The translations under genes and the position numbers were made by a program. A stretch of 53,252 bases of DNA, taken from Candidatus Gorgyraea atricola. GTDB lineage: Bacteria; Omnitrophota; Gorgyraeia; Gorgyraeales; Gorgyraeaceae. The stretch lies in assembly GCA_030765235.1 (NCBI GenBank), contig JAVCCW010000008.1:1-53252 (forward strand), read 5' to 3'. Positions 3,886 through 52,421 of this stretch are shown here, one piece after another; positions within the stretch are counted from its first letter, which is position 1, and every line of letters begins with the position of its first letter. The notes beneath the pieces were generated by a model. That model was not told the DNA's origin. It saw only the letters and a list, made by a program, of their open reading frames with translations, and ran no database searches.

Positions 3886-3896
3886 CCTCGGCACCA
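3886..3896 (+). other. Possible attachment site: 3' end of a tRNA-Leu-like gene
   Basis: CCTCGGCACCA equals the 3' acceptor strand, discriminator and CCA of many tRNA-Leu genes (5' partner GCCGAGG). The preceding CTGGG could be the T-stem 3' strand, but no T-loop or further tRNA body is present. Tyrosine recombinases often use tRNA 3' ends, leaving such a fragment at one border. Confidence 0.4.
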
Positions 3897-4003
3897 CCCT
3901 ACGCTCATATGGGGCTAATCTTCGAAGCATGCTTCGGGTGGCAAGCCACACATAACATGCTACGAAGAATCGCTATATGTGAGTGGCGGGTGGTAAACCA
4001 CCT
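3897..4003. repeat. REP-like palindromic repeat, copy 1
   Basis: Starts directly after the tRNA-like CCA with CCCTACGCTCATATG. It contains the hairpin CGAAGCATGCTTCG and the arm CATGCTACGAAGAATCGCTA, then GTGGCGGGTGGTAAACCACC. The second half is almost identical to the block after tRNA-Thr at 10254-10327. It fills the spacer between the integrase and the next gene. Confidence 0.8.
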
Positions 4004-4019
4004 AAAAAAAGGAGGGGTT

Positions 4020-10118: not shown

Positions 10119-10330
10119 TCCTACACTCACATGTGGTGAATCTTCGAAGCATGTTTCGGACGGTAAACCACCTTTAGTCTCCGAAGCATGCTTCGGAGAC
10201 TAGCAGCACATGAGCGTAGGAGACCTACGCTCAAATATAGCGATTCTTCGTAGCATGCTTCGGGTGGTAAACCACCCATAACATGCTACGAAGAATCGCT
10301 ATATGTGAGTGGCGGGTGGCAAGCCATCAA
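10119..10330. repeat. REP-like palindromic repeat block after tRNA-Thr
   Basis: Two large hairpins lie side by side. The first pairs CCTACACTCACATG with CATGAGCGTAGG around inner CGAAGCATGCTTCG units. The second has a perfect 23-bp stem starting ATATAGCGATTCTTCG, with an inner GGGTGG/CCACCC hairpin. Its second half matches the block at 3897-4003. It contains no gene. Confidence 0.9.
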
Positions 10331-13107: not shown

Positions 13108-13147
13108 AGTAATAGTAGGCCAGGTTTAAACCTGGCCTACTATTACT
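13108..13147. repeat. TTTAAA-centred palindrome, copy 1
   Basis: Perfect palindrome with 20-base arms centred on GGTTTAAACC. The core GTAGGCCAGG is shared with other copies; the outer AGTAATA is specific to this site. It lies between rnfC and rnfG. Confidence 0.95.
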
Positions 13148-15878: not shown

Positions 15879-16676
15879 ATGCTGATAGCGATAATTGTAA
15901 TGTCAATGATGGGGATTTTGTTTGGTCTAGGCCTGGCCTTTGCTTCAAAGATTTTCAGGGTCGAGGTAGATCCGAAGATGGAAAAAGTCCTTGCTGTTTT
16001 GCCTGGATCTAATTGCGGCGCATGTGGAAAGGCAGGATGCGCAGCTCTTGCAGAGGCAATCGCAGCAGGGGATATGAGTCTTACTAGTTGCCCAGCAGGA
16101 GGCGAGGAAGTATCTCATAAATTGGCCGAGATATTAGGCGAGGAGAAGTCTAGTGTTGCTAAAAAGATCGTACGTGTAAGATGTGGCGGTGGAAAGAATG
16201 CAAAGGATAAGTATATTTACGAGGGCGTTAAGACTTGTGCTGGAGCAGCTCTTATCTCAGGCGGCCAGAAATTATGCGGCTTCGGATGTCTTGGTTTTGG
16301 CGATTGTGTTGCGGAATGCCCTTTTGATGCGGTCCACATGGGAGAAGAAGGCGTGCCTGTGATCGACGCTGATAAGTGTACCTCATGCGGAAAATGCGTT
16401 GGGGCGTGTCCAAAAAATATTATATCCCTCGGGCATATTTTAGAGAGATATTATGTAAAGTGTATGTCCCAGGATAAGATAACTTTTGTAAAAAATGCTT
16501 GCAAGGCTGGTTGTATAGGATGTAAAATCTGTGAGAAGCTTTCAAAGGGTGCATTCGTTATAGAAAATAATCTGTCGCGATTGGATTATAGTAAAGTAAA
16601 CGATACTACAGCTTTAAAGCTGTGTGTTGATAAGTGCCCTACCAAATGTATAAAGGCAGAGACCTTTAATAACTAG
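15879..16676 (+). CDS. rnfB: Rnf complex subunit B (Fe-S, ferredoxin entry)
   Basis: RnfB accepts electrons from reduced ferredoxin. A membrane helix (about 1-22) is followed by the RnfB 4Fe-4S domain with Cys46, 49, 54 and 71 (NCGACGKAGC...SCPAGG), then cysteine-rich ferredoxin-type clusters (CLGFGDCVAECPFDAV, CTSCGKCVGACPKNI, CKAGCIGCKICEKL, CVDKCPTKC). Last gene of the operon. Its TAG stop codon is the TAG inside the following TTTAAA-centred palindrome, and its last coding bases reappear inverted downstream. Confidence 0.95.
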   Translation: MLIAIIVMSMMGILFGLGLAFASKIFRVEVDPKMEKVLAVLPGSNCGACGKAGCAALAEAIAAGDMSLTSCPAGGEEVSHKLAEILGEEKSSVAKKIVRVRCGGGKNAKDKYIYEGVKTCAGAALISGGQKLCGFGCLGFGDCVAECPFDAVHMGEEGVPVIDADKCTSCGKCVGACPKNIISLGHILERYYVKCMSQDKITFVKNACKAGCIGCKICEKLSKGAFVIENNLSRLDYSKVNDTTALKLCVDKCPTKCIKAETFNN

Positions 16677-16714
16677 GCCAGGTTTAAACCTGGCCTACAG
16701 GAAAGGTCTCTGCT
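16653..16714. repeat. TTTAAA-centred palindrome, copy 2, with outer arms
   Basis: Inner perfect palindrome at 16672-16695 (TAGGCCAGGTTTAAACCTGG...). Outer arms GCAGAGACCTTT and AAAGGTCTCTGC frame it; the left arm is rnfB coding sequence and the right arm its inverted copy. Confidence 0.85.
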
Positions 16715-16737
16715 ACAACATGTAGGGCATACAATAG

Positions 16738-16778
16738 CAGTTTATAACAGCTGTAGGTCACACTTTAGTGTGACAGAG
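16738..16778. repeat. CACACTTTAGTGTG repeat, copy 1
   Basis: AACAGCTGTAGG is followed by the hairpin GTCACACT-TT-AGTGTGAC. A second copy lies before glyA, and the window's last ten bases AACAGCTGTA look like the start of a third. Confidence 0.8.
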
Positions 16779-16815
16779 CCTTTGCCCGTCAAAAGCAGTG
16801 AATAAGGGAGGTTAC

Positions 16816-20627: not shown

Positions 20628-20633
<6 letters not shown>
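20605..20633 (-). promoter_or_regulatory. Promoter of the FtsH-like gene, -35 in the palindrome arm
   Basis: On the minus strand: TTGACA, 17 bases, TATACT. The TTGACA is the left tip of the large palindrome at 20628-20747. Confidence 0.8.
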
Positions 20634-22342
<1,709 letters not shown>

Positions 22343-24949: not shown

Positions 24950-24960
24950 AAAATTTTTGA

Positions 24961-25060
24961 CCCCGTTCCAAATTCTAATCGATAATCAATTTATTGTTTG
25001 TAGCTAATTGCAGCCAATTCTGACAAATTATTTGATGATATTTAAGAATTTGGAACGGGG
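24961..25060. repeat. 100-bp inverted-repeat element, copy A
   Basis: Ends are CCCCGTTCCAAATTCT and AGAATTTGGAACGGGG, a perfect 16-bp terminal inverted repeat. It is exactly 100 bp, like copies at 38598 and 45467. The interior is more diverged but keeps CAATTCTGA and ATTTGATGAT-TTTAAG in the same places. No open frame. Confidence 0.93.
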
Positions 25061-30475: not shown

Positions 30476-30525
30476 TTCCCCTCTGTAGTAGGCCAGGTTT
30501 AAACCTGGCCTACTACAGAGGGGAA
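30476..30525. repeat. TTTAAA-centred palindrome, copy 3
   Basis: Perfect palindrome with 25-base arms: shared core GTAGGCCAGGTTT, site-specific outer TTCCCCTCTGTA. A looser outer pair GCTCCCCCTGT / ACAGAGGGGGAGC surrounds it. Confidence 0.95.
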
Positions 30526-31601: not shown

Positions 31602-32020
31602 AGATAGCTATTGGCGCAGATCACGGCGGTTTTAATTTAAAACAAGGGCTTGTAAAGTTTTTAAAGAAGAAAGGTCACAGCGTAAAGGATTTTGGTACAT
31701 TTTCAAAAGAGAGTTGTGATTATCCGATTTATGGCTACAAGGTTGCAAGGGTAGTTGGCCGCGCTAGATTTCCTAAGGGAATACTTATCTGTACTACAGG
31801 CATTGGCATGTCAATGGTCGCCAATAAGGTCAAGGGCGTGCGCGCCGCGCTTTGCGATAGAACAGATATTGCGCGTTTAAGTAGAGAACATAATGATGCC
31901 AATGTTTTAGTATTAGCGTCAAAAGTCACTGCGCCCTCTAAAGCAAAAAGAATAGCAGCTGTCTGGCTTTCAACACGCGCCCTTGGCGGGAGACATCAAA
32001 GGCGCGTTCGAAAAATCTAA
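31598..32020 (+). CDS. rpiB: Ribose-5-phosphate isomerase B
   Basis: Interconverts ribose 5-phosphate and ribulose 5-phosphate, feeding PRPP and so purine synthesis. IAIGADHGGFNLK at the N-terminus, GILICTTGIGMSMVANKVKGVRAALC with the catalytic Cys, and the SREHNDANVLVL segment are diagnostic. Length 140 is normal. It overlaps the fusion gene and is followed by a CACACTTTAGTGTG repeat. Confidence 0.95.
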   Translation: MKIAIGADHGGFNLKQGLVKFLKKKGHSVKDFGTFSKESCDYPIYGYKVARVVGRARFPKGILICTTGIGMSMVANKVKGVRAALCDRTDIARLSREHNDANVLVLASKVTAPSKAKRIAAVWLSTRALGGRHQRRVRKI

Positions 32021-32021
32021 G

Positions 32022-32060
32022 CAGCTTATAGCAGCTGTAGGGCACACTTTAGTGTGCCAA
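32022..32060. repeat. CACACTTTAGTGTG repeat, copy 2
   Basis: GCAGCTGTAGG runs into the perfect hairpin GGCACACT-TT-AGTGTGCC, the same arrangement as at 16738-16778 with a C for T change mirrored in both arms. Confidence 0.85.
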
Positions 32061-32097
32061 AAACTGTGACAATAAGAGCGGAATTTTTGGAGGCGAC

Positions 32098-38543: not shown

Positions 38544-38597
38544 CCTACTATTGACTACCTACTCTTGATTTGTTATAATGAATACAGATATAAGTTA

Positions 38598-38697
38598 CCC
38601 CATTCCAAATTCTGAGTGATGCGCGATTTATTTTTTGGAACTACTTGCGTGCAATTCTAATGGGTTATTCGATGATTTTTAAGAATTTGGAACGGGG
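38598..38697. repeat. 100-bp inverted-repeat element, copy B
   Basis: Starts CCCCATTCCAAATTCT and ends AGAATTTGGAACGGGG, exactly 100 bp. Interior closely matches copy C (GAGTGATGCGCGATTTATTT, then TTTGGAACTACT). A locus-specific hairpin GCAATTTACG/CGTAAATTGC follows before the next gene. Confidence 0.95.
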
Positions 38698-45452: not shown

Positions 45453-45466
45453 TAGTCCGAATTCGA

Positions 45467-45566
45467 CCCCGTTCCAAATTCTGAGTGATGCGCGATTTAT
45501 TTTTTGGAACTACTCGCGTACAATTCTGATAGGTTGTTTGATGATCTTTAAGAATTTGGAACGGGG
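45467..45566. repeat. 100-bp inverted-repeat element, copy C
   Basis: Perfect 16-bp terminal inverted repeat (CCCCGTTCCAAATTCT) and an interior about 90 percent like copy B by eye; exactly 100 bp. It separates xseA from xseB. Confidence 0.95.
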
Positions 45567-45887: not shown

Positions 45888-46666
45888 ACATCAAAAAATA
45901 TATTACGAATAAGAAAAAGGTTATAGATAAGGCATTGGATGGGTATTTGCCTTGCGCAACGACAAAGCCGGCAGTGATCCACAAGGCTATGAGGTATGCA
46001 GTGCTTCCGGGCGGGAAGAGGATACGGCCTATTTTGACTATTGCTAGTTTTGAGGCATGCGAGGGAAAAGGAAATGCTATTATGCCAGTCGCCTGCGCGA
46101 TAGAACTTATACATACGTATACGCTTATTCATGATGATCTGCCTTGCATGGATAATGATGATTATAGGCGTGGAAAATTGAGCTGCCATAAGAAATTCAA
46201 TGAGGCGATCGCGCTTTTGGCGGGAGATGCGCTATTGACACTGGGCTTTGAGTTAACAAGTAAGTCGGATATCGTAAAGGAAGTCTCAAGGGCCATAGGG
46301 AGCCAGGGCACTATAGGAGGCCAGGTCTTAGATATGGCCAAGGGTAAGAAGGATTTAGATTATGTTACAAGTCACAAGACAGGCGCGCTTTTTGAAGTTG
46401 CGCTAAAGGCCGGAGGCATGTTTAAAGGCGTTGGAAAGAAAAAACTAACCGCCCTTAGCAAGTTTGGTAGAGATATTGGTTTTACATTTCAACTCATAGA
46501 TGACCTGATAGATAAAGATGGTTATGTAAAAGTTTACGGGGCGCCTCACCTCAGAAAAATGACAGAGCTTTTGACAAGACGCGCAAAGGCCCACCTGGAT
46601 ATTTTTGGCAAAAAAGCCAAGATCTTACAGGAAATAGCAGATCTTATATTGAAAAGACATGACTAA
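45884..46666 (+). CDS. ispA: Polyprenyl (farnesyl/geranylgeranyl) diphosphate synthase
   Basis: Condenses IPP with allylic diphosphates. The first aspartate motif is HDDLPCMDNDD (DDxxxxD type, short-chain producing), the second FQLIDDLID. GGKRIRPILTIA and HKTGALFEVALKAGG also fit. At 260 residues it is shorter than the E. coli enzyme (299), mainly in the C-terminal part after the second motif. It overlaps dxs by eight bases. Confidence 0.93.
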   Translation: MNIKKYITNKKKVIDKALDGYLPCATTKPAVIHKAMRYAVLPGGKRIRPILTIASFEACEGKGNAIMPVACAIELIHTYTLIHDDLPCMDNDDYRRGKLSCHKKFNEAIALLAGDALLTLGFELTSKSDIVKEVSRAIGSQGTIGGQVLDMAKGKKDLDYVTSHKTGALFEVALKAGGMFKGVGKKKLTALSKFGRDIGFTFQLIDDLIDKDGYVKVYGAPHLRKMTELLTRRAKAHLDIFGKKAKILQEIADLILKRHD

Positions 46667-48551
46667 GTTGCTTGATAATATAAATAACCCAGTTGATTTA
46701 AAAAAGCTGAGCGTAGATGAATTGCCAGTTTTGACTCAGGAGTTAAGGGATGCTATTGTTGAGACAGTTTCCAATTCTGGCGGGCATCTTGCCTCGAGTC
46801 TTGGCGCGGCAGAGCTTATAACAGGCATACATTATTGTTTTAACGCGCCTGAAGACATTATTATATGGGATGTAGGGCATCAGGCATATGCGCATAAGCT
46901 GTTGACCGGCAGGAAGGACAGGTTTAAGACATTACGGCAGCTTGGGGGCCTGAGCGGATTTCCAAATAGATTTGAAAGCGAGTTTGATGTTTTTACTACA
47001 GGGCATGGATCTACGTCTATCTCTACCGCGCTTGGCATGGTCGCTGCCAGAGACCTGGAAAATAAATCGCATAGGGTGGTAGCTGTTATAGGTGACGCGT
47101 CTTTAGGAGGAGGCATGGCCTTTGAGGCGCTCAATCACGCGGGACATCTTCGCAAAAAATTTCTTGTAATACTTAATGACAATGAGATGAGCATATCTCG
47201 AAGCGTAGGCGCGTTAAGTAAATATTTAAATAGGATCATAACAGCCCCCAGATATAATAAGATCAGAAAAGATGTAGAGGCGCTTTTGAAACGCGTGCCA
47301 AGATTCGGTTTCGGGGTGATAAGGGCAGCCAGGCGATTAGAAGAAGGACTGAAGAGCCTTTTGGTGCCGGGTATGTTTTTTGAAGAATTAGGATTTAGGT
47401 ATTTTGGCCCCATTGATGGCAATGATGTGCGCGCGGTAGTCAGCACATTGAAGAATATAATCAATATGAATGAGCCAGTACTCTTGCATGTATTGACAAA
47501 AAAAGGCAAAGGTTATTCGTATGCGGAAGACGTGCCTGAAAAATTTCACGGCGTGGGAGCATTTGACGTGGCTACTGGCGCGAAAAAGCCAGCCAAAGAG
47601 AATTTTACCAATACATTTGGCGAAGCAATGATAGATGCCGCAAAAGCAAATAATAAGATCATTGCTATAACTGCCGCGATGCCAGAAGGTACAGGCCTGG
47701 ATAGATTTGCAAGTATCTTCCCTGATAGATTTTTTGATGTTGGTATGGCAGAGCAGCATGCAGTGGGTTTTGCGGCAGGCCTGGCAAGCGCAGGACTAAA
47801 GCCAGTCGTAGCGGTGTATTCTACTTTTTTGCAGCGTTCTTACGACCAGATAATACACGACGTGTGCCTGCAGAATCTCAATGTGATATTTATGCTGGAC
47901 CGGTCAGGTATTGTGGGTGAAGACGGGCCCACGCATCACGGCGTGTTTGATATCTCGTATTTAAGGAATATGCCAAATATGGTAGTGATGGCGCCTAAGG
48001 ATGAAGAAGAATTAAAAGAGATGCTTAAGTTTGCTATTTCCTATAATGATGGACCCATTGCTATCAGGTATCCCAGGGGAGGGAGCTATCGTGCCGAAAA
48101 AGCCGAGGTCCAGCCTCGGCTTTTTGAAAAGCCGAGGCTGGACCTCGGCTTTGGTAAAGGAGAGATATTGAGGGAAGGCAAGGATGTTACGTTGTTATGT
48201 GTTGGCTATATGTCTCGTGTTGCCTTGCACGCGGCAGAATTATTATCATCTCAAGGTGTGGATTGCGAAGTTATAAATGCCAGATTTATCAAGCCATTAG
48301 ACCTGGAATTAATATTAAACTCTATTTCAAAGACAGGGAGACTCTTTACAATCGAAGAAGGTATAGCGAGCGGGGGTTTTGGCTCTTTTGTTTCAGAATC
48401 TCTTATTGATAAGGCGCGGAAAAAGGTTATAATGGAGACAATAGGGCTTCCAGATAGATTTATTGAACATGGGGATAGAGACATTTTATTGGATAAATAT
48501 GGACTTTCCGCAGAGCGTATCAAGGAAAAGGTATTATTGTGCCTAAAGTAG
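46659..48551 (+). CDS. dxs: 1-Deoxy-D-xylulose-5-phosphate synthase, with a palindrome-coded insert
   Basis: First enzyme of the MEP isoprenoid pathway; thiamine diphosphate and Mg dependent. HLASSLGAAELITGIHY, VGHQAYAHKLLTGR, the TPP/Mg motif VIGDASLGGGMAFEALNHAG with NDNEMSIS, and the transketolase-type VGMAEQHAVGFAAGLA are present. Between YPRGGSYRAE and GFGKGEILREG the protein has about 18 extra residues (AEVQPRLFEKPRLDL) encoded by a perfect 54-bp palindrome. This falls at the surface linker before the C-terminal domain, so function is probably kept. It overlaps korD by 13 bases. Confidence 0.95.
   Translation: MTKLLDNINNPVDLKKLSVDELPVLTQELRDAIVETVSNSGGHLASSLGAAELITGIHYCFNAPEDIIIWDVGHQAYAHKLLTGRKDRFKTLRQLGGLSGFPNRFESEFDVFTTGHGSTSISTALGMVAARDLENKSHRVVAVIGDASLGGGMAFEALNHAGHLRKKFLVILNDNEMSISRSVGALSKYLNRIITAPRYNKIRKDVEALLKRVPRFGFGVIRAARRLEEGLKSLLVPGMFFEELGFRYFGPIDGNDVRAVVSTLKNIINMNEPVLLHVLTKKGKGYSYAEDVPEKFHGVGAFDVATGAKKPAKENFTNTFGEAMIDAAKANNKIIAITAAMPEGTGLDRFASIFPDRFFDVGMAEQHAVGFAAGLASAGLKPVVAVYSTFLQRSYDQIIHDVCLQNLNVIFMLDRSGIVGEDGPTHHGVFDISYLRNMPNMVVMAPKDEEELKEMLKFAISYNDGPIAIRYPRGGSYRAEKAEVQPRLFEKPRLDLGFGKGEILREGKDVTLLCVGYMSRVALHAAELLSSQGVDCEVINARFIKPLDLELILNSISKTGRLFTIEEGIASGGFGSFVSESLIDKARKKVIMETIGLPDRFIEHGDRDILLDKYGLSAERIKEKVLLCLK
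48099..48152 (+). repeat. In-frame palindrome inside dxs (GCCGAGG family)
   Basis: Two perfect 26-base arms with a two-base loop, total 54 bases, exactly 18 codons. Each arm is itself a small hairpin (GCCGAGG-TCCAG-CCTCGGC). The sequence CTGGACCTCGGCTTT is shared with the giant palindrome at 20628-20747. Confidence 0.95.
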
Positions 48552-48747: not shown

Positions 48748-48797
48748 CCTTCTTCCTCTGTAGGCCGGGTTTAAACCCGGCCTACAGAGGAAGAAGG
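48748..48797. repeat. TTTAAA-centred palindrome, copy 4
   Basis: Perfect 25-base arms. The core here is GGCCGGGTTTAAACCCGGCC, with compensating changes in both arms against the other copies; outer CCTTCTTCCTCTGTA is site-specific. It lies between korD and korA, and its right tip AGAAGG adds to the korA leader. Confidence 0.97.
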
Positions 48798-51146: not shown

Positions 51147-52410
51147 GTTTGCGCCAAGCCCCACAGGGAATTTGCATGTAGGAAGCGCCAGGACAGCGCT
51201 TTTTAACTGGCTATACGCAAGGGCGCAGTCAGGGAAATTTATTCTCAGGATAGAAGATACAGATAAGAAGCGCTCAAGCGAGGCGTACCTAAAAGAGATC
51301 ATTTCCAGCCTCGAGTGGCTGGGCATGAACTGGGATGAAGGCCCATATTTTCAGAGCAAACGCCAGGATATATATCTTTCGCACGCTGAGAAATTGGTCA
51401 AAGAAGGAGCCGCGTATAAAGACGGCGAGGCGATCATATTTAAGGTGCCTGCTGAAAAGATAAAGATGTACGATATTGTCCATGGCGAGATAGAAATAGA
51501 CAATGCCCTTATCGGCGAACTTGTTTTGATAAAATCAGACAGGACACCTGCCTATAATTTTGCGTGTGTAATCGATGACATGGATATGAAGATCACGCAT
51601 ATAATAAGAGGGGATGACCATATTTCCAACACGAACAAGCAGATCGCCGTGTACAACGCGCTCAAGGTAAAACCTCCGAAATTTGCGCATATTCCATTGA
51701 TACTCGCGTCAGATAAGTCTCGGCTTTCCAAGAGATTCGGCGCAGTGGCGATCTCTGAATATAGAGAAAAAGGATATCTTCCAGACGCAATGGTTAATTA
51801 TCTTGCGCTATTAGGGTGGGCTCCTGGAGATAACAGGGAATTCATGGAAACGCCAGAGATAATAAAAAAGTTTGGCCTTAAACGCGTCAATAAGCGCGGG
51901 GCTGAGTTTGATGAGGATAAACTACGCTGGCTTAATGGCGAGCACATAAGGAAAATGGATGTAAATAGATTTATAGAGGTGGTTACACCTTTTGTTAAAG
52001 GCGAATATGACGCGGCATGGTTTAAAAAGCTTGCCCAGCTTTACCACCCTCGGGTGAAGACCCTTGTTGAATTTAAAGAAGAACTCGATATCTTTGTATC
52101 TGACGAGGTGAATTATAGAGAAGAGGCAAAGGAAAAGTTTTTGAAAAAAGAGGGAGTTTTAGATATACTAAAGTTAGCTAGAGAACGCCTGGAAAGAATA
52201 GAAGATTTCAGCCCTGAAAAAATAGAGGCTGAGATGAGGGCCCTCATGAAGGATTTGAATATCAAGGGCGGGGATTTAATACATCCTTTAAGAGTCGCAG
52301 TTACAGGCAAGAGTGTTTCAGCAGGCATCTTTGAGGTCCTGGCGATTTTAGGTAAAGAGAAAACCATAAGAAGACTAGAGAAAGTTATCCACACAGTAGG
52401 GCAGGTTTAA
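51133..52410 (+). CDS. gltX: Glutamyl-tRNA synthetase
   Basis: Class I synthetase. The HIGH-type motif is APSPTGNLHVGSARTALFNW, the KMSKS-type motif DKSRLSKRFGA. At 425 residues it is at the short end for bacteria (about 470). It may be the non-discriminating type, since tRNA-Gln is present and no glnS is seen here; not testable from this window. Its last codons and stop lie inside a TTTAAA-centred palindrome, which therefore wrote the C-terminus (VGQV). Confidence 0.95.
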   Translation: MVRVRFAPSPTGNLHVGSARTALFNWLYARAQSGKFILRIEDTDKKRSSEAYLKEIISSLEWLGMNWDEGPYFQSKRQDIYLSHAEKLVKEGAAYKDGEAIIFKVPAEKIKMYDIVHGEIEIDNALIGELVLIKSDRTPAYNFACVIDDMDMKITHIIRGDDHISNTNKQIAVYNALKVKPPKFAHIPLILASDKSRLSKRFGAVAISEYREKGYLPDAMVNYLALLGWAPGDNREFMETPEIIKKFGLKRVNKRGAEFDEDKLRWLNGEHIRKMDVNRFIEVVTPFVKGEYDAAWFKKLAQLYHPRVKTLVEFKEELDIFVSDEVNYREEAKEKFLKKEGVLDILKLARERLERIEDFSPEKIEAEMRALMKDLNIKGGDLIHPLRVAVTGKSVSAGIFEVLAILGKEKTIRRLEKVIHTVGQV

Positions 52411-52421
52411 ACCTGCCCTAC
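52396..52421. repeat. TTTAAA-centred palindrome, copy 5, at the gltX stop
   Basis: Perfect 13-base arms GTAGGGCAGGTTT. The gltX stop TAA... frame ends within it (GTTTAA). The arms hold G in place of C relative to copies 1-3, changed on both sides. Confidence 0.95.

Follow-up and report, generated by a model that had tools for sequence, protein, structure and literature searches.

The gene for 1-deoxy-D-xylulose-5-phosphate synthase (dxs) in the window, by which the whole analysed stretch of 53,252 nucleotides is meant, carried a perfect palindrome in frame between two domains of the encoded enzyme, and this palindrome belonged to a dispersed repeat family, named family A. Taken as a whole, the results were best explained by family A being a short, dispersed and non-autonomous palindrome of the REP or Rickettsia palindromic element (RPE) type, which is probably restricted to this lineage and occupies protein linkers. 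We propose, tentatively, that palindromes in Omnitrophota overwrite the linkers of essential proteins repeatedly, at near-constant length and with unrelated sequences, and that variable linkers may in part be successive mobile hairpins.

The dxs palindrome and family A

The dxs product showed matches to DXS structures in the PDB, and its nearest named relative was from a Candidatus Omnitrophota MAG (72%). The gene and the family A features of the window were as follows.

46659..48551, + strand: dxs (1-deoxy-D-xylulose-5-phosphate synthase), 630-aa ORF with the Pfam domains DXP_synthase_N, Transket_pyr, and Transketolase_C
48099..48152, + strand: in-frame dxs palindrome, a family A pair in +- arrangement, encoding KAEVQPRLFEKPRLDLGF, residues 481-498
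48099..48123, + strand: family A unit 1 of the dxs palindrome, loop TCCAG
48128..48152, - strand: family A unit 2 of the dxs palindrome, inverted
20628..20747, no strand: palindrome upstream of eno (ORF 20721-22088), 59-nt arms, family A half-units in -+ arrangement, extended GGCAAG.. arm

A repeat search confirmed the original prediction of a perfect palindrome, with 26-nt arms (48099-48124 and 48127-48152) that were 100% complementary around a 2-nt centre. The 54 nt corresponded to 18 codons, the frame of the 630-aa ORF was kept, and the expected interdomain position was borne out by Pfam, as the insert lay exactly between Transket_pyr (ending at residue 474) and Transketolase_C (starting at residue 499). 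A single 30-nt hairpin, present twice and in opposite orientations, made up the palindrome, whose folding z-score against shuffled sequences was -11 as RNA and -10.9 as DNA. Rfam analysis of the window revealed three tRNAs and nothing else. Modelling of the insert on DXS, which had been suggested as a check, was carried out with AlphaFold (48 aligned sequences, mean pLDDT 84.5); the fold was that of known DXS structures, and residues 479-492 had a pLDDT of <50. The model suggests that the insert is probably a disordered interdomain loop, which at the protein level is likely a neutral tether.

The family A unit was a 30-nt hairpin, AAAAAGCCGAGG(TCCAG)CCTCGGCTTTTTT. Counting sites with the whole or half of the core GCCGAGG-TCCAG-CCTCGGC revealed 32 places in the draft genome (G000, 1.74 Mb, 30 contigs), of which 12 held single units and 20 held pairs (15 in -+ and 5 in +- arrangement). 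The pairs were 54-60 nt long, and one extended copy reached 120 nt. The motif claimed to be common to the dxs palindrome and the palindrome before eno was real. AAAGCCGAGGTCCAGCCT occurred 4 times in the window vs 0.02 expected from shuffles, and the family A 25-mer had 31 genome matches at <=3 mismatches vs 0 for a reversed control; on both grounds, the repeats were not due to chance. When the single copies were aligned on the loop, their ends were sharp at A5/T6 (AAAAAGCCGAGGTCCAGCCTCGGCTTTTTT) and the sequence beyond was random; in the flanks, where a target-site duplication of the MITE type would lie, no bases were conserved outside the A/T tracts, and the genomes used for comparison were all from other genera. 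Searches of 84,980 GTDB genomes and of viral contigs with the exact 21-mer core gave no match, and one near copy was found outside the genome, in the relative G004. A long variant with identical outer arms (ACTTTACTTGGCAAGG / CCTTGCCAAGTAAAGT) was present in G000 at C4:14862, C18:110081, C29:86093, and C29:111965; it has the look of a subfamily that spread recently and lies outside genes.

Eight of the 32 family A sites were interior to genes and in frame (dxs, leuS, valS, queA, DUF362/ferredoxin, GH94, pfkB, and beta-propeller), and the remaining places, the majority, were intergenic or at gene ends. No gene-breaking copy was seen among the 32 places. As read from its sequence, the unit was free of stops in all six frames, and the in-gene copies that were compared with relatives were all located in variable linkers.

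Family B palindromes and Y1 transposase genes

A second palindrome, family B (GTAGGCCAGGTTTAAACCTGGCCTAC), was distinct from family A, ended in GTAG/CTAC, and had about 78 copies in the genome. The following copies were located in the window.

13115..13140, no strand: family B palindrome GTAGGCCAGGTTTAAACCTGGCCTAC
16673..16698, no strand: family B palindrome, 1 mismatch
30488..30513, no strand: family B palindrome
48760..48785, no strand: family B palindrome separating the ferredoxin ORF from the gene that follows
52396..52421, no strand: family B palindrome from which the preceding gltX-like gene takes its final codons, stop codon included

Family B contained stops in two of three frames on each strand, and none of the 27 copies examined was intragenic, vs 8 of the 32 family A sites (p=0.006). 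Open frames thus accompanied survival inside genes, as noted earlier for other small repeats (PMC2229807).

The genome contained six Y1_Tnp genes. One of them, a RAYT-like Y1 gene at C29:67582-67914 (L158), was directly preceded by two palindromes of family B and followed by a partial one. Such flanking repeats around the gene are the usual layout of REP-associated transposases. No Y1 transposase was found near any family A copy; the one repeat-flanked gene of the six was flanked by family B instead. A GTAG/CGTC tag near the stem base was found in none of the 12 single family A units; TnpA-REP enzymes use this tag to differing degrees (PMC8266576).

Three further sets of repeats were observed in the window. 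An imperfect inverted-repeat cluster around CGAAGCATGCTTCG at 10119-10309, directly after a tRNA, had a related copy near 3888-4013 and formed another repeat family. Two 49-nt repeats at 16736-16784 and 32020-32068 were 84% identical with a palindromic core CACACTTTAGTGTG, and a 101-nt repeat was present three times (24960-25060, 38597-38697, and 45466-45566; 78-92% identical).

The linkers of relatives and the origin of the palindromes

The comparison with DXS from relatives showed that 15 of the 16 other dxs genes of the same bacterial family (L062-L077) had no palindrome in the linker, and the relatives did not all carry the same residues encoded by ordinary DNA. A different palindrome, family C (TGTCCAAGG-CTAAG-CCTTGGACA), was found at the very same dxs linker of the relative G006. 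Family C was related to family A but distinct; the cores CCGAGG-N5-CCTCGG (A) and CCAAGG-N5-CCTTGG (C) were a paired change apart (common CCRAGG-N5-CCTYGG). It had 32 matches in G006, 6 in G003, and 0 in the other genomes searched, and was in frame in dxs, queA, valS, uvrA, proS, and a heptosyltransferase gene of G006 as well as in valS of G003. The copy in G006 uvrA (L315:747-2999) was an in-frame pair, and uvrA has been reported as a REP target gene in other bacteria.

Linkers from a class-wide sample were then scored, those with a score of 10 or more being taken as palindromic and those not cut by the pattern being left out (10 of 111 dxs and 3 of 95 valS). Palindromic dxs linkers were found in 2 of 101 cases, G000 and G006 only, vs 0 of 695 windows, so dxs was not a general hotspot. 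For valS, 7 of 92 linkers were palindromic vs 0 of 400 windows from the same gene (p=6.6e-6), and 4 of 89 when the three palindromes known beforehand were omitted (p=0.001). The four newly found valS palindromes (G020, G048, G105, and G136) were unrelated in sequence, with no further full copies among the loci examined. Only weak palindromes (score 7) were found in the dxs linker of G004 and in queA of G003 and G009, where the linkers were long.

The palindromes in dxs, queA, and valS could be old shared insertions whose ancestral sites were converted by concerted evolution to the current family of each genome, an explanation that we regard as having a minor chance of being right. The likeness of the A and C cores would fit it, and so would the four-gene tree, in which G000 and G006 were close with weak support at these nodes. 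Three genes were common to the lists of G000 and G006; the chance of this was 2e-6 for 1500 genes and 0.03 for 60, which is improbable unless few genes tolerate palindromes. The pairs of these two genomes also had the same arrangement at dxs (+-) and at valS (-+). Because the dxs pairs agreed and were confined to G000 and G006 among the 101 linkers, the dxs palindromes may descend from a common ancestor and have since undergone sequence turnover. However, the queA pair was -+ in G000 and +- in G006, and the valS pair of G003 was +- at a shifted place, so these were not one inherited copy without rearrangement. Moreover, G001, which was about equally close, lacked all three palindromes, and valS of distant families was hit repeatedly by unrelated palindromes. 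A decayed family A-like hairpin was found at the same spot in leuS of G004, and genomes with more similar leuS had no hairpin, a pattern that independent events would explain only if they favoured this spot.

The original prediction that the palindrome adds residues held only in part, as the dxs linker was 21 aa vs 12-25 in palindrome-free relatives, and in valS and leuS replacement predominated. Palindromic linkers were 21-23 aa in dxs vs 12-25 in palindrome-free relatives, and 19-23 in queA vs 10-36. In valS of the same bacterial family, palindrome-free linkers were 16-27 aa and that of G000 was 22 aa, and the linkers of G006 and G003 were 17 aa and almost wholly palindrome. Over the class, the mean valS length was 25.0 aa for palindromic linkers vs 23.8 aa for the rest, and subtraction of the element left 4-13 aa vs 19 aa for the shortest palindrome-free linker (n=85, same counting). 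As the palindromic valS linkers were no longer than ordinary ones, the palindrome had probably replaced linker sequence. The plain leuS linker was 9 aa in the palindrome-free G007, G005, G003, and G002 and 13 aa with the hairpin, so that a hairpin of ~11 aa gave a net gain of 4. These ancestral lengths were inferred from other genera, and since dxs and queA linkers were naturally variable, replacement was clear only for valS and leuS. The length data would call for insertion with deletion, for overwriting of an older element, or for quick selection on length.

Plain insertion of the RPE kind, in which the whole mobile palindrome adds 10-20 residues and later unrelated deletions mimic length conservation, appears unlikely on these data. 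The palindromic dxs and queA linkers did exceed those of many relatives, and linker lengths do vary, but the valS remainders fell below every palindrome-free linker, and several palindromes were still perfect, which left little time for independent deletions that spared the palindromes.

It is distinctly improbable that the palindromes are functional RNA hairpins, that is, elements for intrinsic termination or mRNA stability which are retained, even within genes, for their regulatory role. The unit was shaped as a two-way intrinsic terminator, with an A-tract, a GC-rich stem of 10-11 bp, and a T-tract, and most family A copies were intergenic; however, a mid-gene terminator in leuS, valS, and dxs would truncate essential transcripts, and the sites were not conserved, the relatives mostly having no hairpin or one of another sequence. 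An assembly or binning artefact, in which chimeric metagenome joins made the palindromes, can be dismissed, since even in a draft of 30 contigs with metagenome-assembled nearest named relatives, joins would hardly produce one sequence 32 times over many contigs and in frame where it lies within genes, and an independent genome had a parallel family in the same linkers.

For the preferred reading, a dispersed non-autonomous palindrome that occupies linkers, a possible course of events can be outlined from the sequences. Family A may spread as a folded single strand that is copied or transposed, and a Y1 (HUH) transposase of its own genome could be the mobiliser, acting in trans. The move would delete or overwrite target DNA, or overwrite an earlier element already occupying the site, and selection would afterwards retain only in-frame and nearly length-neutral outcomes.

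Comparison with known systems

No title or abstract on in-gene palindromes was found in a search of the literature on Omnitrophota with palindromes or transposases. The Rickettsia elements named in the original prediction remained a valid analogy, as both are dispersed and in frame in genes, but were not the sole parallel, because intragenic REPs occur in many species (PMC3733652). RPEs are dispersed palindromes that are open in the frame used and lie in frame in conserved genes, where the protein tolerates them (PMC10969869), and the protein-coding palindromes of Wolbachia are comparable to them (PMC2229807). Family A was likewise in frame in conserved protein genes (8 interior sites), and like RPEs it had no mobiliser tied to it; it differed in being a 30-nt unit or a 54-60-nt pair, vs about 105-150 bp for RPEs (PMC2229807). 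Thus, the analogy holds and membership does not.

The intragenic GTAG/CGTC REPs are palindromes of 20-40 bp that occur singly or as HH/TT pairs (Di Nocera et al. 2013, PMC3733652). Some of them lie inside ORFs, including uvrA and tRNA synthetase genes, and encode 20-30 aa; that survey makes no mention of Omnitrophota (PMC3733652). Family A resembled them as a dispersed, hairpin-sized palindrome in single (12) or inverted paired (20) form, but lacked both tags, GTAG and CGTC. It was similar to the REPIN/BIME systems (RAYT, TnpA-REP) in its inverted hairpin pairs and in a genome with Y1 genes, one of them flanked by family B, and differed in having no nearby Y1 transposase and no tag. The terminator-shaped pneumococcal repeat, described among intergenic MITE clusters and compared here by description alone, is also dispersed and short with a GC-rich stem followed by a T-run, which is the predicted shape of family A. 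We know of no in-frame use of this repeat.

Neither linker replacement nor the occupation of a single linker by more than one family was described in the RPE literature surveyed, which did not include the original RPE papers. If the repeated overwriting proposed above is true, it would be a replacement-type mobility for which the REP and RPE literature surveyed held no description. The valS series provides natural linker swaps, which offer a test of mobile DNA as a supplier of protein sequence and of whether small hairpins move by DNA replacement and not by insertion alone. It also calls for caution, as hypervariable linkers in such genomes may originate from repeats. The present results extend coding palindromes to an uncultured phylum, in which several lineages had unrelated palindromes in the same linker of one essential enzyme, valine-tRNA ligase.
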